Below, piece by piece: positions 959 to 60,201 of a stretch of DNA of 64,000 bases. Each line of letters begins with the position of its first letter. The first letter of the stretch is position 1. The stretch lies in assembly GCA_030141605.1 (NCBI GenBank), contig JAQGDQ010000064.1, forward strand, positions 238,116 through 302,115, given 5' to 3'. The notes under the pieces are model-generated. The model saw nothing but the letters and a program-made list of their open reading frames with translations. It made no database searches and was not told where the DNA came from. The stretch comes from Tubiluchus corallicola (taxonomy: Eukaryota; Priapulida; Priapulimorpha; Priapulimorphida; Tubiluchidae). Made by a program: the position numbers and the translations under genes.

Positions 959-3372
959 GTATATAGTTGCCAGTGCGCATACGAGCACTTTTCTTTAATC
1001 GTTGTGAAATTATACTAGCTTGATGAAAAGTTGGTTCTTTTTTCCCCTTATCTTTGCTTTTTTAAATAGTGTGAATTCTTGGTATTCCACTGATTATGTT
1101 AATTTTTCTCATCATGAAGAGAACCCTATAAGCACACATTTACCTCACAAAGTGATAGACACAAAATAAATGGGGGGCAATACTCGCTTTGAACCTTTGT
1201 AGATTTATGAACTCCATTGACCAAACTGCAACTTTGCGAGCTGTTATGAATTTTTCAACAACTTGGGCACCCTGTCGAATGCTGGGGTTTAATACAGAAC
1301 CTACTCGGCCTACCAAATGTAATTAGTTGTGGCTGGACTGGAATCTGTCTCATTTTGAAGTTTTAATCCCTTCAAAATATCTTCTCTAAGTCAGCAGCAA
1401 CATATTGGTTTATTAATGCCTAGACTTGCTTTTCTTAAAACTCAAAACATTCTGATACAATGTGGCATTCATAGCTGAGTGGTCATAGTATGCATTTGAA
1501 TAAAAAGATAGCGTCAAATATGATTAGTTAATGGATGGCTGAGTACCAAGAAGACTATTTCTGGGTAGTTCCGTCTGCCGTTGGTCATAACCTCATCCGG
1601 CTACTTTTTCATTATATTTGGGTTCGAGCATGGCTGCACCGGTTCAATGTCTCATCCCAGAGGACCTTTCCTTTTTCAGTTTTCGCCTTCCTCGCAAAAC
1701 AAAACGAGAATGTGGAAAACATTTAACAAAGAGAATGCGCTTTGTGTATGATTCTGTCAGTTATCAAAACATCCTTTCTACAACAATATCAAGCTTTTTG
1801 CGCCAAACAAACATGTGTGCCAAAAATAATCTGCGTACAATAATAACAAACATCGTTGTTGGTATAACCTTAGACTTGGAGAAAAGTCTAACCTCTAACC
1901 TTAGAGAAAACAGCATTGTGTACGTACTTTTATCCAGGATGTCTGGCAAAGCGTGCATTATTGTTACGCTATGTTTACATGCATTATTATAGGTAGAACA
2001 CTAAATTCATTGAAATTCAGTATCACTTTGACGTAAAAGTGTTCACCTCAGTACATTTTTCTAACATTTTTCTTTGACATAGTATCTTGACTAGCACATG
2101 CTTAGGCAATGCACGAAGCCGCAGGATTTGCCAAATCTGAGCTGAGAAAAGTAAAATATTTTGTGCTTAAGTTGCAAAAACATGACCCACTTTGAAATTT
2201 CCAAGAGTTTTCATTCATATAAGAAATGAAAACGTAGAAAATATTTGTAGCGCATTTTTCAAGAGAAAAACCAAGATTCACGCCGCTCTCACAGTTGGTG
2301 CAAAGACCACTACTAAACTGATAAGGATCTCAGTCTGGAACTAGTAAGTTAGTAAGAAGAAATTTCGTAAGATAGTGCAAAGCTCCCCAAGAAAATGAAC
2401 AAACGGAGGCACTACAGTTGAGGAGGGATCAAGCACAGTTGCAAAAAAATCAAAAAGCACGGATGGTGTTTTAATGCCTGTTTTTGATATTTAGACATCA
2501 AAACTGCAAAATCCACAATCCATTAAAGACATCCTATATACTTTGTTAATAAGCATCTAAAATTAAAGGAGGAAAGAGTATTGTATCACTTAGTTTTAAA
2601 TCACTAGTATCAATGAGCAAAGCACGCGGTATTCACTCCTGGGCTGTATGAGCCTTTTGGTGTAAGTCTTAAATCTTGGGCATGTTAGGTTTAATTAGCG
2701 TTTAGCATTTTGTTGAAATTTTCAAATGATTGTGACTGTTTTCAATTTCGGACCTCAGGAAATCTCGTACTTAAATATCTGTACTGATGTGAAAAACCTA
2801 TAAAAAAGAGCATGATTTTATCTGTATCTGTATCAGTGTCTGTGTCTGTGTCTGTGTCAGTGTCAGTGTCAGTGTCTGTGTCTGTATCTGCATATCTGTA
2901 TCGCATCCGTATCCGTATATGTATCTGTACCTGCATCTGTTCTTTATCTGTGTTTGTAACTGTAACTGCACCTGTATCTGTTTCTATATCTGTATCTGCG
3001 TCTGTGTCTGCGTCTGCGTCTGTATCTGCATCTGCTTCTGCGTCTGCACCTGTATCTGCATTTGTATCGGCATTGTATCCGGCATTTAGAAACCTTGATT
3101 TCTGCAGGTGTTGCGGAGAATGTGGCTCACACCTGGCGACGGACATCTGACCTCACGATGGGTGACCGAGTGGGTGACGTTGCAGGAGAGAGCAACAACT
3201 TGGAGTCGTATGAACGTGATGATAAGAACACTGATGCATCGTTCCTTCCGCCATGTTTGGAACGCAATCGAAGCATGCGAAGTCTTAGTGCCAAAAGTGC
3301 GGTGACGGACATGGAGAAAAGAGGAATTTCTCCAATGTCTCCTCACTCGCCTGTCTTTCTATACGAGGAGAG
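783..3372 (+). CDS. Unrecognised gene, two internal or 3' exons (783..958, 3108..3372)
   Basis: Two exons are inferred from splice signals and reading frame. Exon A follows TTTTCAG and starts in phase 2. It reads QQQELQQIENREVGRRLL, then a Lys/Arg-rich and Ser-rich stretch (REKAKKRERRSSSKRHK), and ends in phase 1 before GTATAT. Exon B follows TTTCTGCAG in matching phase 1. It reads VAENVAHTWRRTSDLTMGDR and continues into a polar, Ser-rich region with SPMSPHSPVFLYEER. The first part looks like a short coiled coil followed by a basic segment; the rest looks disordered, as in the cytoplasmic tail of a membrane or scaffold protein. I do not recognise the family. GC content is clearly higher than in the flanks, and the phases agree, which supports coding. 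Exon B can end at AG|GTGCGT (3372) or run to a TAA at 3394 as a terminal exon. The 5' part lies before the window. Confidence 0.6.
2815..3072 (+). repeat. TCTGTR hexanucleotide array next to a splice acceptor
   Basis: About 43 units of a degenerate hexamer TCTGTA/TCTGTG/TCAGTG, with TCTGCA and TCTGCG variants toward the right. It is open in several frames, giving artificial Val-Ser or Asp-Thr repeat proteins that are not genes. The array ends about 35 bases before the CAG acceptor of the exon at 3108, so it forms the upstream part of that intron's UG/pyrimidine-rich 3' end. Confidence 0.9.
3108..3372 (+). CDS. Exon B of unrecognised gene
   Basis: Acceptor TTTCTGCAG ends at 3107 and the first two bases complete a Gly codon with exon A. 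It contains VAENVAHTWRRTSD, an acidic/polar middle, RSMRSLSAKSAVTDMEKRG and SPMSPHSPVFLYEE. The donor is AG|GTGCGT; without splicing the frame continues RCVGIFR and stops at 3392-3394, so this could also be the last exon. Confidence 0.55.
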
Positions 3373-3679
3373 GTGCGTAGGTATTTTTAGATAAATTCAT
3401 CGATGTCATCGTCGTAGTAGTACATCGTCACAGTCAAATTCAACTCACGTCTTTAGGAAAAGTTAGTTTTGTCGAATTACATTTTTTCTATTTTCTGTGA
3501 TGAACTAAGACTTTAAATTACTAGCACACAAAACAGCTTCAGCTATAGTGTCTAAAAAGAAGTAAAAAAACATATAAATGAAGAAAAGAAACAGTACAAC
3601 AAAAAGATGGGAGAATAACAAACAAATTATATACATACTACTCATCGTTGTCTTTGTTATGTGTAATGAATGTACTCAC

Positions 3680-8313: not shown

Positions 8314-11300
8314 GTAACGTTTATTGTTCGAAAGTTTGGCCACGGGGAGTAGGCACAGGCTGTAAAAAAGCTTCAAAAAGTAGAAAAAAAATTATCCTGG
8401 AAATAGATGAGAAGCAGTATTGTATCTGTTGTCTACAATAGAAATACAACATTGTTTCCAATATATTACCATTATTGTTTCTACTTTTTATACCTTTTCA
8501 GACTGTACCTAGCATCCAAGTGGCAACCTCAACACCCCCCCATGCTTATTGCAGATAATATTACTTACTGGTTACAACCTCAATTGCTTTCACATGCAGT
8601 AAATTTACTATAATAGAAAATTAATCATATTATGCTGTTTAGAACACGAATGAATTTTGTGATGTAAAAATTTTAGATAAAAAAATTTTCACTGACGTTT
8701 TGCTTCTATAATTACGACATTACTTTGTAAATAGAACACATCCTTCATCTGCTTGTTGCTTGGGCTTAGTTGAAAATGCTTCAAATGATACAAGTTCATC
8801 TTGCTGTGTTTCTTTGATTTAATGCAATGACTGTTTGGAATCAGTCCCCAGTTGAATAAACAAGGTCCCAAGAATTGAACACACAGCTTTTTAGTTACAT
8901 TCCAGATATTCTAGCCACACCACTGGCTTACCATGCACCAACTGTCTTAAATTTAGTGCTTATCTTTCTCAGTTTGTGTTGCAACAAAAACTTACCAACA
9001 TTCATTAAGGTGAAATAAACGATTAAAAGAAAATTAAAGCTAAAGGAAAATGCTGTTGATACAAGCTGCAACTGACGTAGCTTTGCCCTCCACCTTTCAG
9101 TAGTTTTGTTATTGCATTATTATTCAACTTTCACCAGGTTCCTATTTCTAATTTGTTTTAGGTACAATAGAAATTTCAGTTGCAGATTAGTTTGTTGAAC
9201 AACACAGTTAACTTTAAGTTGTTTGTTTGTTTGCTAGCGTGCTTATTTTTGTTTGTTCGTTTGTTTATGTTTGTTTGTTTTTTTTGTTTGTTTGCTAACC
9301 TTAACCATAAGTGGTATTACCTACTAGCTAACTTAGAAAGAAGACATATTCAGACAAAACCAATTACACTGACCTTGCACACCATATGATACCAGCGCAA
9401 GATATATTTCTACTAGACTTAATATTATTTATTTTGATGTCATTCACAGAAAATGTGCATACAGTTTATATGTCAGGCTGAATAACAGTGAAAATTTTAT
9501 ATGCAAAAACATTTTAAACAGTGATGTAAAATTTTCTTCTGTAATTAGATGTCATTGGCGTAGTTTGTTATATAGTTAATTGTTATTTGTGTTATTGTTG
9601 TGTTTCATGATTTATTGTATTATTTGTATTAATTTGTAATGTGTTTATGAACTTTGCGAAGTTTGAAATAAAGTATTAAATCTAAATCTTGCACAAGGCT
9701 GGACACATGACGATAAGCTATTTATTGCTTCTAGGCACACGAGAAAAATTTCTCGATATTAACGAAATTTTGTTCATGCAGTTAGTTTATTGATCCCATG
9801 TGGGGTAAATTGCTTGAACTCTATGTGGTTTAGAAACGAAATTCCTTATAACATGTCCCAGTCGTAATCGTCCTAATAATTTCTTTAATTACTAATTTAC
9901 CTCATTTTCTCTTCCAGGGCATACAAGTTTCCTGATGAACCAGATGTGGAGAGCAGTCGGCATGCCTGTCGCGCAACAGAATCAGACTGCTGTGAACGCG
10001 TAGTGATAAATGTGAGTGGCATGCGATTCGAAACAAAACTACGAACTCTCAATCTCTTTCCAGATACGCTACTCGGTGATCCTCAAAAACGTATTCGTTA
10101 CTTCGACCCATTGCGCAATGAATACTTTTTTGATCGAAACCGGCCGAGCTTCGATGCAATTCTGTATTATTACCAAAGTGGTGGTAGATTACGCAGACCT
10201 GTAAATGTCCCATTAGATGTGTTTACTGAAGAGATTAGGTTCTATGAACTAGGCGAAGCTGCATTGGAAAAATACCGTGAAGACGAAGGTTTTATAAAAG
10301 AGGAGGAACGACCCCTTCCGGAAGGTGAACTCCAGCGAAAGCTATGGTGCTTATTAGAGTACCCTGAAACGTCTCAATGGGCGAGAATTATAGCTATATT
10401 CTCAGTATTTATAATCTTACTCTCGATCGTGATATTTTGCCTGGAAACACTTCCAGTGTTCAGGCACTATAAAAAAGTAACAGGACCACATAATAAGACT
10501 TCTTTCAAAGATGATACAGTGCCACAAAAGACTGATCCGTTTTTCATTATTGAGACTATATGCATCATCTGGTTCACCACAGAATTAACGCTGAGGTTTG
10601 CTGCCAGTCCAAGTAAACTTCAATTTGCGCGTAGCATTATGAATATCATTGATATGGTGGCTATTATTCCTTACTTTGTCACATTAGGTACTGTATTAGC
10701 CAATGAAGAGAAGAGCAGCAGTCAGGCTATGTCACTGGCTATTCTTCGTGTGATTCGTCTAGTAAGGGTATTTAGGATATTCAAATTATCGCGACATTCA
10801 AAAGGACTGCAAATTCTAGGACAAACGTTAAAAGCAAGTATGCGGGAACTTGGCTTGCTAATATTCTTCCTGTTTATTGGGGTAATATTGTTCTCTAGTG
10901 CTGTGTATTTTGCAGAACAAGATAATAATCAGACACATTTTACCAGTATACCAGATGCCTTCTGGTGGGCTGTTGTCACTATGACAACAGTTGGTTATGG
11001 TGACATGCGACCCGTCAGTTATGGCGGCAAAATAGTTGGTTCACTGTGTGCCATAGCAGGTGTGCTAACCATTGCTTTGCCTGTTCCAGTCATTGTGTCA
11101 AATTTCAACTATTTCTACCACCGAGAAACAGACAATACTGAGCAACAGCTGTGCCTAAGTGAAACAGATGCAGATAACTCGCCTCCAAGTTCTGTGGGTG
11201 ATGACGGACAATATTTATCTGGCTCAATCAAGCGCAAGTCAACTATTAGCAACAGTAGCTCAGATATGGTAGAAATGGAAGAAGGACTCGGAACTAGGAG

Positions 11301-11385
11301 TCAAGAAGTGAGTAAAAATCCAGGACAGCAATGCAATACTAGTCACAATAATGTTAATTCACTCAGCATAGAGACTGATGTATGA
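8201..11385 (+). CDS. Kv1: Shaker-type voltage-gated K+ channel (Kv1), two exons
   Basis: Pore-forming alpha subunit of a tetrameric delayed-rectifier or A-type K+ channel in the plasma membrane. Exons 8201..8313 and 9918..11385 join in phase 2 (AG|G, Arg) to give 526 residues. The ATG at 8201 is preceded by an in-frame TAA at 8195. Visible: N-terminal [11 protein letters not shown]1 tetramerisation domain from about residue 64 (ERVVINVSG...[18 protein letters not shown]) to [19 protein letters not shown]1 near 191-215; S1-S2 loop with glycosylation site NKT (residue 230); S4 near 312-333 ([18 protein letters not shown]); pore filter TVGYGD at 395-400; PVP gate hinge in S6; C-terminal ETDV. 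The T1 sequence and ETDV assign it to Kv1 rather than Kv2-4. The residue after GYGDM is Arg402, the external TEA site. Subunits should interact with MAGUK PDZ domains via ETDV. Confidence 0.97.
8314..9917 (+). other. Kv1 intron 1
   Basis: GTAACG...CTTCCAG intron of 1604 bases. It holds a TTTG-rich microsatellite (about 9221-9292). At 9590-9685 there is a stretch resembling a retroelement 3' end (GTTTGAAATAAAGTATTAAA). The open frames inside are short and without features. Confidence 0.85.
9560..9690 (+). mobile_element. Possible LINE 3' tail
   Basis: T/G-rich sequence ending ...GAAGTTTGAAATAAAGTATT, the style of non-LTR retrotransposon 3' UTRs with a terminal AATAAA and A/T-rich repeat. No coding part is attached. 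It could equally be a cryptic polyadenylation region of the intron. Confidence 0.25.
9918..11385 (+). CDS. Kv1: Kv1 exon 2 (T1 domain to C-terminus)
   Basis: Acceptor TTCTCTTCCAG at 9907-9917. Encodes [16 protein letters not shown]1, S1-S6 and the cytoplasmic tail, ending GTA-TGA (11380-11385) after ETD. A single large exon for the channel core is usual for Kv1 genes. A GTGAGT donor consensus lies inside the tail at 11308. Confidence 0.95.
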
Positions 11386-11652
11386 CTATATGGCAGGACG
11401 GATGATAAGGTCATTCCAGACCAGAAACCCGTTCCTGTTGTACTTATAGAGGCAACGTCAGAACAAGCCATTCCTGCACTTCCTGAAGAAGAAACTGTCC
11501 TTCAAACGGAAGATGACAATGGCCATGATGATGCCGATGAATGTCTTCCTGAAGACACTTGTGAAGTCTCTTCTACTGTGTCTGAACAGCCGCCAAACAA
11601 AGAAGAGGAGAAAACAGAAGAGCATGGAGAGGAAGGATGCCCTCTCCTTTGA
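11386..11652 (+). CDS. Kv1: In-frame 88-codon extension beyond the Kv1 stop
   Basis: Directly after TGA the same frame stays open for 88 codons to a second TGA at 11650-11652. It starts LYGRTDDKVIPDQKPVPVVL, becomes strongly acidic (Glu/Asp/Pro/Thr-rich, for example LPEEETVLQTEDDNGHDDAD), and ends EEHGEEGCPLL. Its base composition is richer in G+C than the following 3' flank and resembles the upstream coding tail. The stop context TGA-CTA matches the known metazoan readthrough context UGA CUA. Alternative route: a 117-nt in-frame intron, 11308-11424. Expected product with readthrough is 615 residues. It could also be fossil coding sequence left behind by a new stop mutation. Confidence 0.5.
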   Translation, partial: LYGRTDDKVIPDQKPVPVVLIEATSEQAIPALPEEETVLQTEDDNGHDDADECLPEDTCEVSSTVSEQPPNKEEEKTEEHGEEGCPLL

Positions 11653-14600
11653 CTAATCTGGGAAGCTACTTACTTGGACTTGACATAATAGCTTTTCTGT
11701 TGATAACTTGCAAGTAAAAAAGGATATTGATATCACCAAATATGTAGAAACTATTGGCGTTGCGGGCACAGTACACTCAGTTTCTAGTCATTGGTGTGTA
11801 CAGGAATCGAAACATGAATCGCTACACCCTTAACCGAGTGAATGTTCTCTCTGTATACTGTGATATGGCAATGTCAGGAAAACGTAAATATAGACTTTTG
11901 CTGGCAGGACAGGTCTGTAAATGTTACTCGATGTGCCAATTTGATAAATCCTCTAAAATTGTTGCTATGTCTCGCCCTTCCATACGGTGTGTGATAAAAA
12001 GAAGCACGCAGATTGCAGTGTGTTGGGTGCACCTTCGCTAACATCAACACTGCTTGACTGTCGCTCAAAGAACTCCGCCTCTTGTGCCCAGATGATATAA
12101 AAGTCAATGACGAAGTGAAATTGGCAACAATCTTGTTTAATCAAATTGAAAGGTTCTCATTTCTAGCTCCATGTGCTTCAGATCTTTTAGACTTTCTGCA
12201 GCAGTTGATATTTAGACTAAAAAAGATGGGTTGGTATAATCCTTAGTTGGTACAATTATTTTCTGGATGAGACTAAGGTATAGCCGAGCTCTGACGGATG
12301 ACACCCCGACATATGACCTTGAGTAATACTGTTATTCCTGTCTGTCAACAGATCTCTAATCTATACAGTTTGCTGAATAGTTCTATCCCTGGTGAAGGCT
12401 GCAAGCTGCAAGAGCCTACCCAATTGTATTAGTAATGTTGCCTGTCCTAATTGACAGTGGATTATGATTCTTTCGGGTGACTACCTTGCCATGATTAAAC
12501 TGTAGTTCTATCAGTCAGAATCCGATATACGATAATTACACACCGTTATGTGTATTCAGGGACAGTATTGCTGCTGGCGGTAATAACGCGTTCCTCCAAA
12601 TACAAACAGTTAAACACGCTTTCCCACTCACATTTTTTGAATACTGGTGATAAATTATTTTCCAAAACAGTCAAAGTTTAATGTTTGAACGCCATCTATT
12701 TAAATGATTGTCTATGAATCAAAAACTAAACGCGTTGTATATATTAGGCTCTTACTGGATAATCGTGAGACATTACGGTGTTTTTTTGGCTTTCTGCTTT
12801 AACTTTTGAAATTTACATTCAGAAAGTTACAAGTATACGTTTCTCTTTCAGTCTCAATTTGTGTTGAAAAGATGTCAGCTTCGGTTCACTCAAACGCTTG
12901 ACAAACAAATGATTGTTATGCAGTTTGTCTTATAAACATGTCAAGTCTCACTTGTTTGTCGTCTAAATCCAAAGCAGAGCACGTGACCTGCATTTGATAG
13001 GCCATATATGGGCAAACTAATTGCCAAACATAACTGCCGCCGTGACTGAATTAGCCAGTATTGTTGGCTTCCCTGCAACTAGGAATGCTCTTCACAATCA
13101 ATACTTGGGAGGCCTCACAAAATGTCGCTCAGTTCCCAGTTCCAATGTAACAAAAGAAAGAGATTTTGTGTTCAGAAATAATTTTAGAAACTACTTCAAT
13201 TAGAAAAGACTTCACGAGAACCAATTTAATTACTGTCTACACTACTTAATCTGTGACCTAGTACCGACTATCTAGTCAGAAATGTTTACCATTCATTTTT
13301 AAAAGTTTGACTGACTGCACACAGACACACGAAAGCTTTTGTATGTTCTTTAATTGCATTAGTATACGACGTGCTAGATTTTAACTGATGAATTCTCTTG
13401 ACGTAATTCTTACTGGACACTTGCAGTTACAACCGACATCCTCCATGATTAATAGGAATCTAAAGCCCCAATTTATCGCTTGTGTTCGTATCGTCTAAAC
13501 GCAGACGTGCCAAATAAACCAACTCGAACACGAAACGATACAAAACGAAGAGTTCTTGAAAGTACATTACCGTCAGTAACAGCAGCTGTAGAAGAAAACG
13601 TCGAAGTTCGGCGTGGTTTTCCTTACTCAAACTAAGCATTGCAAGTATGACTTTTTACAACGCAAACGTTAAGGTGGCGACTGGTGAGCAGAATAGGCTA
13701 TTGAAAGCGAAATAACGAGGCATCAGATCCTGTCGCATGCACCTACCGAGCCGTCTGAAAATTTATAATTGCTACATGTGTCAGAAACTTGAGTTTGGAA
13801 GTGATGGAATTTTGCTCACGTCTATTGATTTTTCGTTGATTCAGTCACGCCGTGAAGATTAATTTTGTGTTTTTTCTCATCTCAATAGCATCTACCTCAA
13901 CCTATACAGATATTAGTATTTACTATTCGAAACTGACCAGATATGAATGAAAGCAACTCCGTAAGCTCGCTAAGCCAAATTCGCCGCAAAATAGAGGGAA
14001 ATCTTCATATCGAGATAAATTCTTGTACTGTTACTCTGCCAAGTCTTCTTCTGAAAGGATACGAGAAGAATCAGGATCACGCGTTCACCACGTGCATCTG
14101 ACGAAGTGGTTTGCAAGGAAACCCTCCGCAAAATGCAGCTGCAGAACTTTCAGAAATGAGGTAAACACTATAAATTCTTTGTTATGTAGCAATATTAATG
14201 AAATTATAGGTCTGAGAAACGTCTAACTGGGATCTTTTGGATCATTTTATGCCTCAATATTTCCAGCAAATGGCATTATTTTGAAATATCGGCCATATTG
14301 TTTTTAAATCTTGCAAGAGGTCACTGCAATCATCAGCCAGCACCATACTTTGTTGTTTCGTGACTTAATTGGATACTCACATGGTACACCAGCAATTGCA
14401 TATTATACCTGCTAATGCTGTACAATGCCTTATTTATCAAGGTCGAAACTCAGTGAAGCATGGCAATTGCTAATAATTACTTGACTTTTGTGATGACATA
14501 TTTTTCAATGAAACTCAAACCACCATGCAGTGCTTAAAATAATTTTAATCCTGCTATCTGTTTGTTTTAATAACTAAAACTATAAAAGGTAGACTTGGCT

Positions 14601-17262
14601 GCAGCACTGAAATGTTATTTTCAAACTCTCTGTTACAGCTTGGACAATGTGTATGAACAATGTTGGCTACACGTCTTTGTGTACTTGCCTATTTCTACAG
14701 TTTAGTCATAATTATAATCAGTATTGTGAATACCAGACATACAGTGAACAATAAGCAAATGGCAAATAAAAATGGAATGACGTGAATAGTACAAGTAGTG
14801 AATGTACTGAGCTACACCTAGAAGACAAAACTTTATAAGATACTACTCAGTTGAATGATGTGTAACCAACTAACTAGTAACTACTAAATCTAAGTGATGA
14901 GTACATGTCGTGTATACTGTAGATAAAGTAAAAAAAACGATTCTCAATTTTTGGAGCCCTCATAGGTCAACTGGACAAGGTCGATCAAAAAAGGTCAACT
15001 GCAGAATAAAGTCTTCTGAGCAACTGTTTTGCTTACTGACGAAAATTTTTCAAATAATTTTGCTCCGTCTTGAGACTTAACTATACCCATACAATCATCC
15101 ATTTTCAATATTCAACTTTTCTATTACCGTTTGCTCTCTTTCCTTCTTTTTATTTCTCATTTTCAATAGTTTTTTATCTTAACTATACATTATGCCCATC
15201 TAAGCAGTTTTTAAACACGCTTTGTCTTCTTTCTGCTGCTCAGTGCATTCATTACTCATATTATTCATGTCATTCCGCTTTTGTTTATTATTTGCCTGTT
15301 GTTTACTGAATGTTTGGTGTTCACAATTTAAAATTGAGAGGACATTACAGGGTAATCTAAAAAGGCTATTAGGTTGCCATTTAGGTCAACCAAATAAACT
15401 GTTAACCCAGTACTTATTATAACTACTGCAACCGCAATTGACCTTCATGTTTTAAATGATTTAGGTTATCGAGGAAGGCCCTAAGATTTGTGCATTGTAC
15501 AGCTAAGTGACTTCTAACAGTTTACAGCTCGTTAATTAAACAGGAAAAGCCTAACTACTTGCTGCAATAGTGAGGTAACAATTTAGATGAAATTGAAATG
15601 AGTTTTAAACGATCGTTGATAAACTTGGTAGACCGTAAAGTAGTAAGCAGTTTAAATGGTTCAGTGTATTTTTTTAAATGCATTATGCGTTTGTTTGATA
15701 AATGCGCACTTGTATGGCAAAATACTGTTAACTTTGTGTAATTATTAATATATGCTCGATTCTTACGCAATTACCCGTTTTTGGCTGCCAGCAGCGTCAG
15801 TCATTGAACATCAGTCGCCCAGCCGACCTTCGATTCGCCGCGATATTTTACTGTTTTATCACTATAGTTTCGGACTGTTCTTATGCAAACTACTTTACAT
15901 TTTACTAACAACTTCCTCGTTTTTTTTTCGTTCACAGTTTTTTCTATGTGCGTACGCGTCAATGCGTGCACTTCTCTGCTTGCATGTTTTCTGCGAGCTT
16001 TCTTCATTTAAAAGGCGGCTTGGTTTTCTTCGATGTAAATCTAAGTTGGACACTACAAAACGCTTTCATGTATGTTATTATAATTGTTTATCAAATCATC
16101 GCAAAAAGGAATTAATAATTTCATTCAATGATATGTGCGTGATGTCAGTGTTTTACGTGAAAGATTAAAGGTTGTTACTGGGCGTCGAAAATCTAGGACT
16201 AGCGCCTACACCTCGGAAACGCGTTGCGCAAAAAAACAGGTGATGTACCTATCAGTTTAGAGGTGTTCGGTTGTGCTGTAGTGCACATGTTCGAGAGCTC
16301 ATACGTGAGTACAACGGCAAACTTGAAATTTGAATTTTAAACTTCAAATTTTCCAAGCCTTTGTATATCACACTAATTGTAGTACAGTAGCAACGTATTT
16401 CAGTTCGCTTCCGCAAACACATGCTACACGTTCATGGAATGTTTGTATTTGTTGAAAATTATGTTCACTTGTGAAACACGAGTTGTCTGTAATTAATTGA
16501 GTTTCCAACCTATTATTTAATTGCTAGACATTATTATAGGTGTTAGAATGTATACTTTTTACCGTACTTCAGAATGGCGTGTGATTTGAAAAATCATCCT
16601 GTATAACCTACATGCATGTTTAGCGTGCTGTTTGTAAGTTTTGAGGCACCGGGCAGCGGGCCTGTTAGAACACCAGCTAGTTGTTTGGTAGTCCCCGATC
16701 TCTCTATTCCAAAATCCAGAGTAAAACTTGTGAGGTTAAAATCAGAAGTCGCTGAAACAATATGACAATTAACGCATCTGAAATGGTGCTCAAGTTACAG
16801 GAATCTAGCTGAAGGTTTTCTAATTTTAAGCAAAACTACACAAAACTCGTTCAGCACGCCACGTGTTCTGAGGCTATGACCTTAACCAATAACGTTTTTG
16901 TCCTAAGATATATCGCAGTGCTAAGACATACACAAGGCAATCCATGTACTACACTTTTGTGTACCCTTCGGCACGCTGCAAGTCTGAATTCGGCACTCAA
17001 CGGAAGATCTCCTTGCGGCAAGACCGCCACCGAGCTCGTTATCAAGAGTAACCCTCCAAGATGACATACAGTTTGCAACTAGACTGCAGTCTGGCTCTTT
17101 TTCAAGGATAATTCTCTAACAATGAGTCATTGAACTGGCTGAAGTGTCTTAGCTACATTGGGATGGTGTGCGTGTATACCTCCCTGAACCAAGATCAATT
17201 TGAAGGACCTTGCCCTGAACGAGGTTAACAGCAAAATCAATGTGGCGAATAAAACTGCCTAT
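11653..17262. other. Kv1 3' flank and gene-free region
   Basis: Presumed 3' UTR of the channel gene followed by AT-rich DNA. No further exons, RNA genes or repeats are recognised. A higher-GC stretch at 14023-14162 ends in GAG|GTAAAC and could be an untranslated exon, but nothing confirms it. Confidence 0.4.
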
Positions 17263-43200: not shown

Positions 43201-46200
43201 ACCATCCACCACCCCACTTGTAATACACCACCCACACCATACCATACCTCCCATATCGTTCCGCAACACAATACCACATGTAAAATCTATAACACTGTAG
43301 AAGGGCGGGTGATAACAATGCCTGGAACAGCAGCAAAATTTCTCAAACTCATGGACAATGGATGTTTCAAATACAGTGCAGCTTAGGGGGCTTGAAAAAG
43401 AACTTTGAGTACACCCTTCCCGTTTCGTCTAGTGGACCTCTCTCCCAACAAAACCTTCAACATTTTATGGACCGTTTCGACCTCTTTCTGCTGGTGTGCT
43501 TATTTTTTCCCAACATGTCCAAACAGTTGCACAACTTGAATTTTTTTGGAGGCCATTTGAGCAGTTTTCTGCCAAATTTGTGTGGTTGGGTCTGTTAAAA
43601 TGCCTGTAGCAGGTATTAGTGGCCCTCCCGCTAAATCTAAATACGAGTATTACACCCACCATCAAATGGGTTATCTAACCATTACTGGCACCGCCTCCAG
43701 CAGGTTCCCGTTCTCTAGAAATAAGAGGCATAAGTTTTGCAAAAAACGGGTAAAAAATGGCCATTATAGAGGTTTTTTGTCTCCCATTCTTCCAATTAAA
43801 AATATGCGAACATCCTACATAGCCCTCATTCATAAAGCAAAGTCAGCAGCAGCTTTTGCTAAAGTTATAAAGGTACAATGGAATGACGTCAAAACAATGC
43901 AAAACGTCAACAGTTTTCCAAGTGAGAATTGCCGAAAATGGAATCTCCAATCAACTCGTTGCAGCTCCTTTTGGTAGAGGCATTCCAAAATGTACCCATA
44001 TCACCTTGTAGCCCAGTTCCTCCTCTTTCTAAAGAGCTAAGTATCTCTTTCTAAGACTCCCACCACGTGCCACTAGAATGATTTTTCTACAGGATGTTTG
44101 GCCAAAAAAAATTGGGAGTTGGGTCCGGGAAAATGCCCGTAGCGGGTATTAGTGGCTCTGCTGCTAAATCTAAATATGACTATTACACCCACCATCGAAT
44201 GGGCTATCTAACCATTATTGGCACAGCCCCCGACAAGTTCCCGTTCTCTAGGAATAAGAGGTATAAGTTTTGCAAAAACGGGCAAAAAACGGCAATTTTT
44301 GGAGGTCTTTTGCTCCCATTCCTCCCGGTGGGCCCGATTCGAAAAATAAAACCTCAAAGACAAATCTGTGGGTCTGGACCTTTCATTTGACATATAGAAC
44401 GTCGAGAATGGTGCCGTCATCGGAGCTGTAGCCTCGTCGGTTATATATATATCACCACATCACACTACCACCCACCACTCCACTCATAACACATTAGCCA
44501 CACCAACTCTCCACACCACTCACAACACACCACACATCCCATACCGCAACACAACACCACACCATACCACCCAAACCATACCACAATACCACACCACCCA
44601 CACCCTATCACCCCCAAACATTATCCACACCACATCATCCAGACCACACCCACCACACCACCATTCTACCAACACCACACACACCCTACCACCCCACCAC
44701 ACCATCCACAGCACAACACCCACTGCACATCATCCACAGCATGATGATGGCGATGATGATGATGATGATAACAACAACGATGACAACGACACTTACAACA
44801 CCAACACTAACAGCATCATAGTAAAACCACCCATGCAAAACAATTTTGTACAAAGTTGAAACAGTGTGCTATAACAAATGCTCTTAGACCCATCCACCAA
44901 TGATCAATACTGAATGGACATTCTACATAGTTTTGCTTACTGCTTCCCAGATGATAATAGGCTCACAGATATAAATTGCACATACAATCTATAACACAGT
45001 AGAACGGCAGGTGAAAGCCATGCCTGGAACAGTCGCGAAATTCCTCAAAGTCAAAGACAATGGATGTCTACCCCTTCCCTTTCGTCCAGTGAAACTACCT
45101 CTCCTAGTGAAACTACCATACCAACACTTCGTAAACCGTTTCCTCCTCTTTCTGTGAGTGTGTTTATTTTTTCTTAACATGCTCAAATAGCTGCATAAAT
45201 CAAGCTCTTCTGGAGGTTGTTCATGCAGTTTTTAAAAAAAATTTTGCATATGGGTCCCGGAAAATACCCATAGCGGGTATTAGTAGCCCTTCTACGAAAT
45301 CTAAATATGACTATAACACCCACCGTCGAACGGGCCATTCAACCATTACCGGCACCACCCCTGACGCGTTCCTGTTCTCTAGAAATAAGAGGTATAAGTT
45401 CTGCAATTTTTTGAGAAAAACGATATATATATATATATGTATATATATACCACCGAAATTAATATATGCGATAATTTATTTACTGTTACTGAATAAGTTA
45501 CTTAGCAACCAACCAGCAGCTCTTCTTCGTTTACGAGGCGATATATAATCAGACTCAGCATCAGTATTGTCGTTTTTAACTTTATCAATTTCTAGCACCT
45601 TGTCATAACTTTCTTCTATTGCATTCTGTTCAGATGAAACTGATTCAGCATTTGACGTATCATCTACAAAATAAAAGTTCTTCATAAACATTTTGTTATC
45701 ATTACACATTGTAATAAACTGAAATTTCGTTAATTTTTGTTAATTTTTTACCAGTGGCAGCTTCTGACGTCTGTCGACTACTTTCTTCTTGCATAGAAAG
45801 CTCTAATGCCTTTGCTAAATCTGAATCTATCTTTTCAGCAGCACCACCATGGTGACTAAAACAAGAACAGACTAAATTGAACAAACTTTTAGCAGTGCGT
45901 TCAAATTTACCATATAATATGTGTTATTGATTGGTTATTTAAATTCATCTTGAAAATCAAATTTATAAATTTCTTTGCAGTACATATTGAAATGTAAATG
46001 AAGAAAGTTATATTAAACATACAGAGGTTAACATTATTTGTTGTAACACAAATAATTACGAGGAAAGGTTACAATTACGGGCATGTGTTTGATTGAAAAG
46101 CTAAGCTGATTGGGCCTGACTAGTAAATGGATGGATGACCCACATCTATTTCTTGATAAAACTATTTTAGGTAGCTCATTTTCCATCAGCTATTTCTTTT

Positions 46201-55144: not shown

Positions 55145-58100
55145 GTAAGTATTGTCAATGGTAGTTTTCCATTTTTAATAACTAGCAATTTTGTTAGCAT
55201 TTCAATTAGTAATCATAAAAATATTTTTCTAAGGTTTAGGTTTTGTTGTCCAGGAATTTCATAGGATAATATAGTTTGTCGTATGCCATTACGCCGATAT
55301 CACAGTGAAGTATAATTAATTTTTAGCTAACTATGATTATTATACATTAACTAACTAGACTGTACATTAACTAATGGCAGTCTTATAATACAAGCGGTTC
55401 GATGGCTTTCCTTAGATAAACTGATAATGAGCGAAAATAGGGAAGTGAGGATATCATTGATATTGAGTCAGGTTCGCGTCGCGCAAACATCGAGTCAGGT
55501 AGGTTCTGAGGATGGATTTCAGCTTGGCGGTTTTGTAGTGTGCCAACCTATATAGAAAACGACAAACAACTTTTTTATAATTTGCTATACATTAATAGTA
55601 GCTAATAACTAAAATTATTATCTCCTCGGTTCTCACTAGTGATTCTGATTTACATATTACGGACGCCATAATAAGCAAAAAGTAATAGTTGAAGAATTCT
55701 ACAAAATTATCCACGAACATGACTAGGCCTGCGCCTAGTTAGCACTCGGAATTAATACAAACATTCATATGCGAAAATATTTCATACCAACACTGTTCTT
55801 TGGCAATATAAAACGCTTAGACCCAGTATTTTTCAGTACGCGCTTCACAGGAAAATTAAATTGCCGGAAAATTAAACTGCCGAATAAGCACACATACATA
55901 GTGCATGGAAAACATAATTATCCATGCGGTAGGCCTGCGGATACCAGAAATAATTAATCCAAAATAGTCGATGTCCGGCTTTCATCACAGTTTTGCGAAT
56001 CATTTTCCATTGCTATTAACATGAAATATGTGTTGCACTTAAAGGGACAAACATGATTCGATCCAGAAACAGACATACTATACATAGGGCCACTAAATGT
56101 CAATCAAATGAGCTAAATATTGATAATTTTATTAATGTTTTTTGTTGTACACAAAGACTATAGTCATTAAAATCTACCTGAATGTTATTGCATCTAGTAC
56201 CTTCACAGTTTCTAACTGATGCTGAAAATTGTGGAATCATTTCACACACATTTTTGTGATGGTGATCTGGCAACAAATATGAAATGAACACGCATATCAC
56301 GTATATATATATATTCGTAATATACTATATACTATAGTATACTATACTGTATACTATATATACTATACCGGTATATTATACCGTTTCTGAAATATAATGC
56401 TTTGTGCACAAATTCCAATAAAAAACAAATACATAGAGTGCTGTACTTAATGTCAGCATTAGATTACTTTACTCCTTAAAATCCGTTTGATCCGTCTGTC
56501 CAGCCATTAGAATTTTGCAAAACTTTGCAGCTTTGTGGTGCAGGTATGTTGGGAATGGGAATATGGTTCATAGTTGCTGAAGAAAATTCATACTTTACCG
56601 AAATTCTAGGGGGATATGACAATTCGGACCCACTTCTCAGGTAATATTCTTTTAAATAGTTATTTTTGTTTAACGGAAATTGTTAATTCAGTGTCAATTT
56701 AAACATAAAAAGATGAAACGACTAGAAAAATGTTAAGTTTTGTTTAGTTATTTTATACATAACTTAATTGATTGCAGGTACTGCTAAACTGCATATACTT
56801 TATGCATGCTCACTAACGTATATAGCTGTACCATTTTAATTTACAGCGAAGCTACAGGCCTTAAAAGGCATGGCTTAAAACGAAAAAGAAGTGAAACTGT
56901 CGTGATGACGTGATGTGTTAGTAACGCTGCAGCCTAAGGATTAGCAAACGACGTATTGACTCTTAGCAAAGTTCAAATTAATATGAAGTCAAACTAATCA
57001 TGAAAATGTTTCAGCTAAAAACTTTTCGTACATGGAAGGTTATACAGAAACTGTATCATTTAGTAATGACTGAAAGACGAACTTCAGATTACATGTATCT
57101 GCTTTTCACGCACCTTAGTTCATTTAAAAGCCAGCCATAGTTCATTAAAAACTAGCATTTGGGTTCTTTATTTTGTCTTTTATTATAGTGTCGCAGCCTA
57201 TGTTGTTATTGGTGTTGGAGGGTTAATATTTATTGTTGGCTTTCTTGGATGCTGTGGAGCGTGTATGGAAAGTAAATGTATGCTAATAATGGTAAGATAA
57301 ATTCCTTATTTTATACTTAATACCTTTAGGTTTGTCACACATACAAGCATACATAATTGTCGCTTGTACAACGAGAGAAGATTAGCCAAATAAACTATAC
57401 CGACTAAAATACACGGAATAATAGAAATAATTAAAAATATGAGCATCACTTAATTCTGTGAATATGAAAAGATTATACGGAGATCAAATGATCAGAAACA
57501 CTAAAACTGATTCACTAAAGAAATGTAGATACAGCGTTATTAAAATAATTAACACAAATTAGCTAGCCCAAGCTGAGCATATTATGTCTCCGTCCATTTG
57601 TTAATTTGCCTCAAGAATTTACCTGACAGAAATTATGTATAAAGTATTATATATAACCAAGAAAACAAAAATTCTCATCTACAAAAGTCTAATATTACCA
57701 CATTATCTATATGGTTGCACTTTACTTCAAAACGTTAAATATGAAAACTTTAGAAAACTAAATACAATGCAAAACTACGCACTTAGATTAATTCATGGCT
57801 ACTCTAACAAAACTGCTAAACAACATGCTGCTTCTGCAACAAGCTCAAGAACGTCCACAAAAATACCAATATTAGAAGCCTATCGAGATTACAAAACACT
57901 GATATTTCTTTATAAATATATAAATAAACTGAGCATTCCATTTATAAACAATCCCTTAGCATTTATTCCTGATACCACATTGAACACTAGAACATACAAT
58001 TTAAAGCAAATTACAGTAAACAATAAATTTGGAAATAACTCTATATCAAAACAGGCCATACATTTATGGAACTTACTACCCAGTGAAATAAAACAAATAG

Positions 58101-60201
58101 AATCTCTCCACCACTTTAAAAAGAAATTAAAAGAATATCAATATAACAGGTTTCAACTTCCACATTGTGCATCTGATACTAATTACACGGACTCCACTTT
58201 CATATACCCCCGCCCCTGACTCCATATAATGATTAAAAATGAAATTTTTTTAAAAAATTATGTAATGTAATACGTGTTATGTTAGTTTCGTGTTTCGTAA
58301 TGTTAAATGTATAAATAGTGTGCACTATGTAATGTAAAACTTAATGTACTTTCCTATAATTGTTTGTAAAAATATTTTAATATGGTATTTGTAAATATGT
58401 TCATTATATTGTATATAGTTTGCACTTTAGTTTTTTTAGTATGCACTGGACGCATTTGTCTTGAACAGTGTTGTTATGTTAACATTACGCTGAGGCTAAC
58501 TCAATTTTATTATAATGAGGGAACCGTTTTTATGACAAATAAAGAATTAATATAATATAAAAAAAAGTAAGCTGATAGCAAAGCCACAATAAGTACCGTT
58601 CGCGGTCAAATTAGTACTTGTATGGAACCTGTAGTTCATGCTACCGTAGACGTATTGCTTTAATAAAACAATCTAGTTACAAGTAACCATAAATGCGACG
58701 TGCTTCAATTCGCAAACTAAACATAAAAATTTTCGAAATGGTCTTTGACCTTACAACAATAATAATAATCGTGGTGACTGTAAGAGTAAGAGGCACCGCC
58801 TATTTACACAAACTTGTGTAGTCATGTTAGTCATTAGTCTAGTTCCTGGTCATGCTTGAGTCACTTCAAGCAAAAATGCATCAAAAATGGAGCTGGTTTT
58901 TGAAGCGTTGCATACTTTCCTGACTTGTAATGTTTTATATAAAAATATTACAAAAACAAGAATACTGTATCGTTTTTGCAAACGCAATGATTTTTTATAA
59001 CCCTCTTTACCACATATAAATGCCTATTTTAATATTTTTAAATGGTAAGGCAAAGAACCGTCTGTTTCTTTTTATTGTCTGCCGCCATAACTGTCAATAC
59101 GGAACTACCACCACCACTACTAATACCAGTAGCACTAGTGCTACCATTATCACCACCACTATTATTACTACTACCACAACCACTGCCACTGCTTCTACCG
59201 ACTATCATGCATTACCCCTCCCACTCGCACTAGCATTACCACTGTTACTGCAGCTGTATTACTGGTATCGCTAACATAGTAATTATATGAATAGCATGAA
59301 TGTAGCGCCAAGCTATTTCTAACACAAGAAAAATCTTAAGAAACTGTGTTAATGGTTTAAACCTGATACGATACATTATGATTTTTTTTCAGTACACAAT
59401 CTTTCTTGTAGTCTTATTGGCAGCAGAAATAACGGCGGCTATTTTAGCGATTGTCTACCAAAGCGAAGTACGTATACATTTTAAGATTTGAAGATTGCAG
59501 TGTAATTCGTAATTTTTACGCTTTGTATTTTTGTCAATAATACAGTGTAGAATCAATAATATAGTATCGCATTCTTACTCTTTACATACAAATACATAAA
59601 TGGGGAGCTGTGTTTTTGAGAGAAATAAGCTAGCGTTTCTCATAAACATGACGGTTAACACCAGCCCCTGTAATCTGAAATAGATACATACTAATAATAA
59701 ATATGGCGACAAATCTATCAAGAATGAACACGTGGAATGACCTACACATTCGGTCAAAAAAGTGAGTAACATATCTAGTTTTAGAACTTCAAAAAGTTAC
59801 ATATAATTATAACAGACCTGTCCACAATGGAGACAAAGTAAATAGCAATGCAGACTCTTCACTATGCCATTCAGGTAAATGAGATTAATTTTTTTTAACC
59901 ACATCAAGTTTTAATTGGTTTTTAAAAGTTAAGGAAATATGTATATCATACAAATTATTATTATGATGTTTTTGTACGTCGTAGGTTTTAATTGGTTGTA
60001 GGTTGTACTGTTATTATGAGTTGAAAAGTATTTTTGATTTCTTTGTGTCATTTGAATTTGTATTATATAATTGTAAGTACTATGCTTGATATAGTTTGTA
60101 ATACGTGTATTTGTATTGTTATTTGTTTTTAACACTATCTCACACACAGAAACACAGAAATTAATTTTAAGTGGTCATCTACTCAACATTGTTTTCGGTG
60201 G

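Follow-up and report, generated by a model that had tools for sequence, protein, structure and literature searches.

Does translation of a Shaker-type potassium channel gene end at its first stop codon, or do some ribosomes continue into the long open frame that follows? The gene lies in a stretch of 64,000 nucleotides (G000:C1902:238116-302115; hereafter the window, meaning this whole stretch of DNA as analysed) of a genome that was searched over 343.5 Mb. As the initial annotation had described and the sequence confirms, the channel ends in ETDV and a TGA, after which no stop interrupts the frame for 88 codons up to a second TGA, and both stop codons are followed by CTA. From the sequence features described here, readthrough of the UGA at 11383 is the most likely cause of this extension, and we regard it as probable.

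The window gene encodes a T1 domain, a six-helix channel domain closest to Kv1 and a C-terminal TDV PDZ ligand, and is a Kv1 (Shaker-type) gene. Its second exon matches the Pfam families BTB_2 and Ion_trans, and the top PDB match of the protein is Drosophila Shaker (E 1.4e-208). Splice sites were scored with a splice matrix; the acceptor at 9917 has a score matched by 0.06% of window AGs and the donor at 3373 a score matched by 0.14% of window GTs, and the putative first coding exon is placed from splice sites and reading frame only. The L/ETDV end is described as a conserved Kv1 C-terminal motif and PDZ ligand (PMC12259577). Counted over the genome, the ETDV-TGA pattern is uninformative by itself (33 sites, compared with 71 for a reversed-pattern control), and a search of viral contigs with the Kv1 gene gave no relative. 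The pore-S6 coding region of the same gene, at 10990-11103, matches the Rfam family RF00485 (K_chan_RES, potassium channel RNA editing signal) with 99 bits against a gathering threshold of 51, a match that may reflect sequence conservation, the protein there being highly conserved. Elsewhere in the window, open frames at 43561-43977, 44082-44390 and 45135-45548 have, by eye, a common motif like KMPVAGISG...KSKYDYYTH...GHSTITGTA and are apparently a dispersed repeat, and a 204-codon open frame at 57605-58219 resembles, also by eye, the C-terminal region of the reverse transcriptase of a non-LTR retrotransposon.

Table. Features of the Kv1 gene and its 3' extension (positions in the window) and first in-frame stops of the Kv1-class genes
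Feature	Position	Strand	Basis or content
First coding exon, Kv1 (putative)	3158..3372	+	ATG 3158; donor GAG|GTGCGT at 3373; in-frame join with exon 2
Second (last) coding exon, Kv1	9918..11385	+	T1 domain, channel domain, C-tail to ETDV, stop TGA
Possible 117-nt intron (alternative reading only)	11308..11424	+	donor GAA|GTGAGT, acceptor GACCAG; ETDV and stop skipped in frame
ETDV, Kv1 C-terminal PDZ ligand	11371..11382	+	translation; codons GAG ACT GAT GTA
Leaky-type stop context UGA-CUA, U at +7	11383..11388	+	sequence; CUA common to L010 and L011/L012 (there UGA-CUAG)
Extension, 88 codons, acidic, no in-frame ATG	11386..11649	+	codon score, composition, frame
Predicted stem-loop: 13-bp outer stem, one bulge, around a 4-bp hairpin	11389..11442	+	MFE -20.1; +7 to +60 from the stop U
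C-terminal CPLL of extension, CaaX-like	11638..11649	+	translation
Second stop TGA, again with CTA after it	11650..11655	+	then 11 further codons to TAA
First in-frame stop, window Kv1 gene			TGA-CTAT
First in-frame stop, L010			TGA-CTAG
First in-frame stop, L011/L012			TGA-CTAG
First in-frame stop, L013-L017			TGA-GATA
First in-frame stop, L018			TGA-TACC
First in-frame stop, L019			TAG-GCTA
First in-frame stop, L020			TGA-TAAC

The TGA at 11383-11385 is followed by CTA TAT GGC and the next in-frame stop, the TGA at 11650-11652, by CTA ATC, with 88 sense codons in between. That UGA followed directly by CUA, as found here, is a known leaky context had also been stated, and two published accounts agree: in a reporter assayed in human cells, UGA-CUA alone is reported to give 1.5% readthrough (PMC4132726), and the highest values are reported with G at +7, the UGA-CUA-T context of CACNA2D4 being also high (PMC4359377). 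The Kv1 stop has U at +7 and lacks the G of the strongest form of the motif; G at this position strengthens UGA-CUA and does not define the readthrough class. The extension is acidic as claimed, containing 26 Asp/Glu and 5 Lys/Arg residues; it lacks Met, and its final residues are EEGCPLL. Because an in-frame ATG is absent, an independent ATG-started open reading frame was ruled out. A PDB search with the extension gave nothing at E 1, a whole-genome search found its own locus and no second copy, and a Pfam match to IntS9_C (E 0.026) was sub-threshold, at 15 bits with a cut-off of 27, and was taken as chance. The TGA-CTA at the second stop may be chance; the 30 codons after it carry no coding signal (codon-score P 0.38), and no structure was found 3' of it (80 nt, z -0.62).

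The initial annotation had held that so long an open frame is unlikely by chance at this base composition. Nulls based on base composition bear this out (P 0.0016-0.007 for 88 open codons), but 49 of the 8058 stop-to-stop intervals on both strands of the window are at least 88 codons long; the length of the frame is by itself weak to modest evidence, weaker than had been claimed, and composition is the stronger point. G makes up 47% of first and 9% of second codon positions in the extension, and the base-by-codon-position information of 0.152 bits compares with a mean of 0.022 bits over 5101 overlapping noncoding windows of 264 nt, of which 1.0% (about 52) attain the observed value, the best 25 of these overlapping tandem repeats. 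A codon model trained on six other Kv1-class genes of the same genome gives the extension a score of +22.6, where the null stands at -13.5 (sd 7.6), and this score is attained by none of 20000 random noncoding stretches, in which stops were skipped, not excluded, to obtain 88 codons. The extension is a coding-like open frame that ends at the next stop, and the coding-like composition noted earlier holds, with the qualification that RNY codons are not raised (25 of 88, P 0.35). The RNY count and the number of equally long intervals would both suit an open noncoding stretch with no translation beyond the first TGA, as would the post hoc selection of the feature from the whole window; we nevertheless find such a chance origin quite improbable, given the codon score, the tandem repeats beneath the best of the periodicity-matching noncoding windows and the presence of the leaky context in paralogues.

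The codon-usage signal spans the interval from the first TGA to the second. The codon score has P 0.053 over codons 1-21, 0.010 over codons 1-34, 0.001 over codons 1-55 and 0.0009 over codons 56-88; over codons 1-13 P is 0.018 (about 0.05 with simpler models), the own frame scoring 3.6 and another frame 2.9, which is nearly equal. The strongest signal sits in codons 14-88, as would be expected under the main alternative to readthrough, in which the last exon is alternatively spliced so that ETDV and the TGA are lost and the remainder of the extension follows in frame, giving an ordinary splice isoform. The intron in question, of 117 nt, preserves the frame, its donor at 11308 is good (attained by 0.6% of GTs), and the pairing of this donor with the acceptor at 11424 is fifth by score among 831 in-frame pairs. 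However, the acceptor is weak, its score being attained by 10.7% of AGs (0.06% for the acceptor at 9917), the 13 codons that splicing would remove are already coding-like, and the two top-scoring pairs use a donor at 11060 and would remove S6. Splicing also leaves unexplained the presence of TGA-CTA in three Kv1 genes, and we consider it unlikely.

The Kv1-exon search of the genome gave 35 matches, of which 12, with at least 54% identity covering T1 and channel, were taken as Kv1-class; the 23 left out were partial or at most 55% identical, mostly channel-only or T1-only exons. These 12 matches reduce to seven distinct genes, L011 being the same as L012 and L013-L017 forming one gene by their shared tail and stop, a merging based on tails, scores and stop contexts and not on every base. 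Insects have one Shaker, which makes it improbable that an animal with seven Kv1-class genes is an insect. TGA-CTA is found at the first in-frame stop of three of the seven genes and is missing from the other four. Of the 2384 TGAs in the window, 35 (1.5%) have CTA next, which corresponds to a binomial P of 1e-4 for three in seven, in a calculation that treats paralogues as independent, which they are not. As a baseline from the same genome, the first in-frame stops of 50 GPCR matches (the top 30 and a further 20 from those ranked next, of 164 reported, at least two of the 50 resembling copies of one gene) include 16 TGA and no case of CTA, and the comparison with three of seven Kv1-class genes gives a Fisher P of 0.0012 by hand arithmetic.

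One of these genes, L010, is the sister gene of the window Kv1 (75%) and likewise has a C-terminus of ETDV followed by TGA, with which a recent nonsense mutation in the window gene does not fit. Silent sites between the two are saturated (pS 0.90), and despite this the nine bases GTATGACTA (GTA-TGA-CTA) are identical; local DNA similarity over the stop is 75% over 48 bases and ends exactly at these nine bases. Our tree pairs the window gene with L010 (support 92/96) and groups L012 with L013 and L020 (97/99), and given the placement of L010 and L012 the context must either be ancient and have been lost in some genes or have arisen more than once. Its presence in three of seven paralogues and its identity in L010 suggest, in a comparison confined to paralogues, that the stop context has been kept under selection. 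The extensions of the two TGA-CTAG paralogues are short, at 21 and 30 codons, and score weakly as coding sequence (P 0.038 and 0.11), and comparison of the window extension with the 3' regions of L010, L011, L013 and L018 gave no convincing similarity (best E 4.2). The L010 extension ends in QTDL, which we take to fit a class I PDZ ligand.

Copies of some Kv1-class genes recur within the assembly. L011 and L012 (G000:C416:9193-10341 and 12910-14058) are two copies of one gene that face opposite ways on a contig of 23 kb and agree in score, tail and stop; they represent either a palindromic duplication or an artefact of the assembly. L013-L017 are one gene on five contigs (C1796, C2016, C2136, C2140 and C2209); score, tail and stop context agree in all five, which represent either recent copies or uncollapsed assembly.

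A stem-loop is predicted to begin directly 3' of the CTA of the window Kv1 stop, and its significance depends on the length that is folded. The folding z-score is -3.17 at 60 nt (6 of 500 shuffles as good) and -3.99 at 150 nt (0 of 500), whereas across 75-100 nt it is weak, about -1.1 to -1.9 (-1.61 with 40 of 500 at 75 nt, -1.72 with 31 of 500 at 80 nt and -1.13 with 70 of 500 at 100 nt). Among 171 background windows, the observed fold value is attained by 12% at 80 nt and by three at 150 nt, and among 22 coding windows of the latter length z reaches no lower than -2.69. L010 and L012 show no clear stem-loop 3' of their stops; the strongest candidate, in L012 with 100 nt folded, has a z of -1.89 (27 of 500 shuffles). 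Since these two genes have G at +7, we speculate that in the window gene structure takes the place of that G.

The proximity of this stem and the RF00485 match in the same mRNA would also be compatible with A-to-I editing, in which UGA becomes UGI and is read as UGG (Trp), giving the extended form. This explanation seems very improbable to us: the predicted stem begins at 11389 and does not include the A at 11385, a G on the 5' side of the A, as in this UGA, is unfavourable to ADAR, and editing does not require CUA. Insertion of selenocysteine would suit the identity of the codon, which is UGA, but the codon comes after a complete Kv1 C-terminal motif and no SECIS family was found at E up to 5 in 9000-16000; this is an extremely improbable reading.

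The C-terminus of the extension bears on what a readthrough product might do. CPLL fits the CaaX pattern, taken here as C-{DENQ}-[LIVM]-x, and so do the ends at 44 of 5967 window stops, 11 of them with L, F, I or M as last residue; the C-terminus of RhoC is CPIL. The CPLL end may be prenylated, and localisation of the subunit may change with it.

Readthrough, which the initial annotation had proposed, is thus partly supported: the two TGA-CTAG paralogues, the identity of the GTATGACTA bases, the codon signal from TGA to TGA and, with its dependence on folded length, the stem-loop all point to it. We infer that readthrough occurs and that its rate is low. Most ribosomes would stop at UGA 11383 and yield a channel with the terminal PDZ ligand ETDV; in a minority an amino acid would be inserted at the UGA, aided by the CUA after it and probably also by the stem-loop, and translation would continue for 88 more codons to end at UGA 11650. 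Kv1 channels being tetramers, a low rate would produce mixed channels in which one or two subunits carry the acidic tail. If readthrough happens, ETDV is buried, and in the extended subunit, where it is internal, it would be unable to serve as a C-terminal PDZ ligand. The two localisation classes that the initial annotation envisaged may follow from this.

More tentatively, we suggest a model that we hold to be possible although doubtful, in which the leaky stop in several Kv1 channels of this lineage is a translational switch of the C-terminus. Ordinary subunits, with their PDZ ligand, would go to scaffolds; readthrough subunits of the window gene, with an acidic tail and a prenylation-type CPLL, would be membrane-held without scaffolds; and the sister genes would use the same switch with other tails, such as the QTDL of L010. 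Were this so, tuning of termination efficiency would set the scaffolded share of each channel. Readthrough itself, if it occurs, would provide a direct translational handle on channel binding to a PDZ scaffold and would add Kv1 channels to the animal proteins that programmed readthrough alters. The presence of UGA-CUA in three Kv1 genes with saturated silent sites makes the claim of readthrough testable.

Kv1 readthrough would also fall in a lineage that probably lies beyond those arthropod groups in which readthrough is supposedly abundant. A COX1 search gave no match. The genome contains several Hox-class homeodomains, and the sequence that follows six of them, which we examined, includes, after one of the six, KKENQALKEMKEQ, which we take to resemble the protostome UbdA peptide; this UbdA-like peptide suggests a protostome, and the Lox5 motif KLTGP was not seen after those six homeodomains. 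Abundant readthrough has been placed after the divergence from the centipede, with a single lophotrochozoan case proposed in the same source, the EFLGa peptides of the annelid Platynereis (PMC5100048), and an earlier estimate confined it, within animals, to insects and crustacea (PMC4528330, citing Jungreis 2011).

Kv1 readthrough is most likely a further case of an established type, in a gene family for which literature searches gave, among the titles and abstract openings listed, no report of Kv1 readthrough. The vertebrate UGA-CUAG genes (OPRL1, OPRK1, AQP4, MAPK10, and LDHB and MDH1) resemble the window Kv1 in that UGA-CUA comes right after a complete protein, and differ in extension length, that of MAPK10 being 13 residues compared with 88 codons here (PMC4132726). 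Unlike them, the window gene has U at +7 (G in its two paralogues) and encodes a voltage-gated channel with a PDZ ligand. Among tested Drosophila stem-loops is that of Hk, the Shaker beta subunit. In Hk and dfr/vvl the stem-loop lies just 3' of the stop, and the one reported to drive readthrough of fly dfr extends from +9 to +59, close to the +7 to +60 of the Kv1 structure (PMC13170385). The dfr gene has a UAG stop and a deeply conserved stem (PMC13170385), whereas the window Kv1 has UGA-CUA and a predicted stem. Among the Drosophila extensions scanned in one study, one is reported to bear a predicted prenylation signal (PMC3840789), and it is this extension that the CPLL end of the Kv1 extension recalls.
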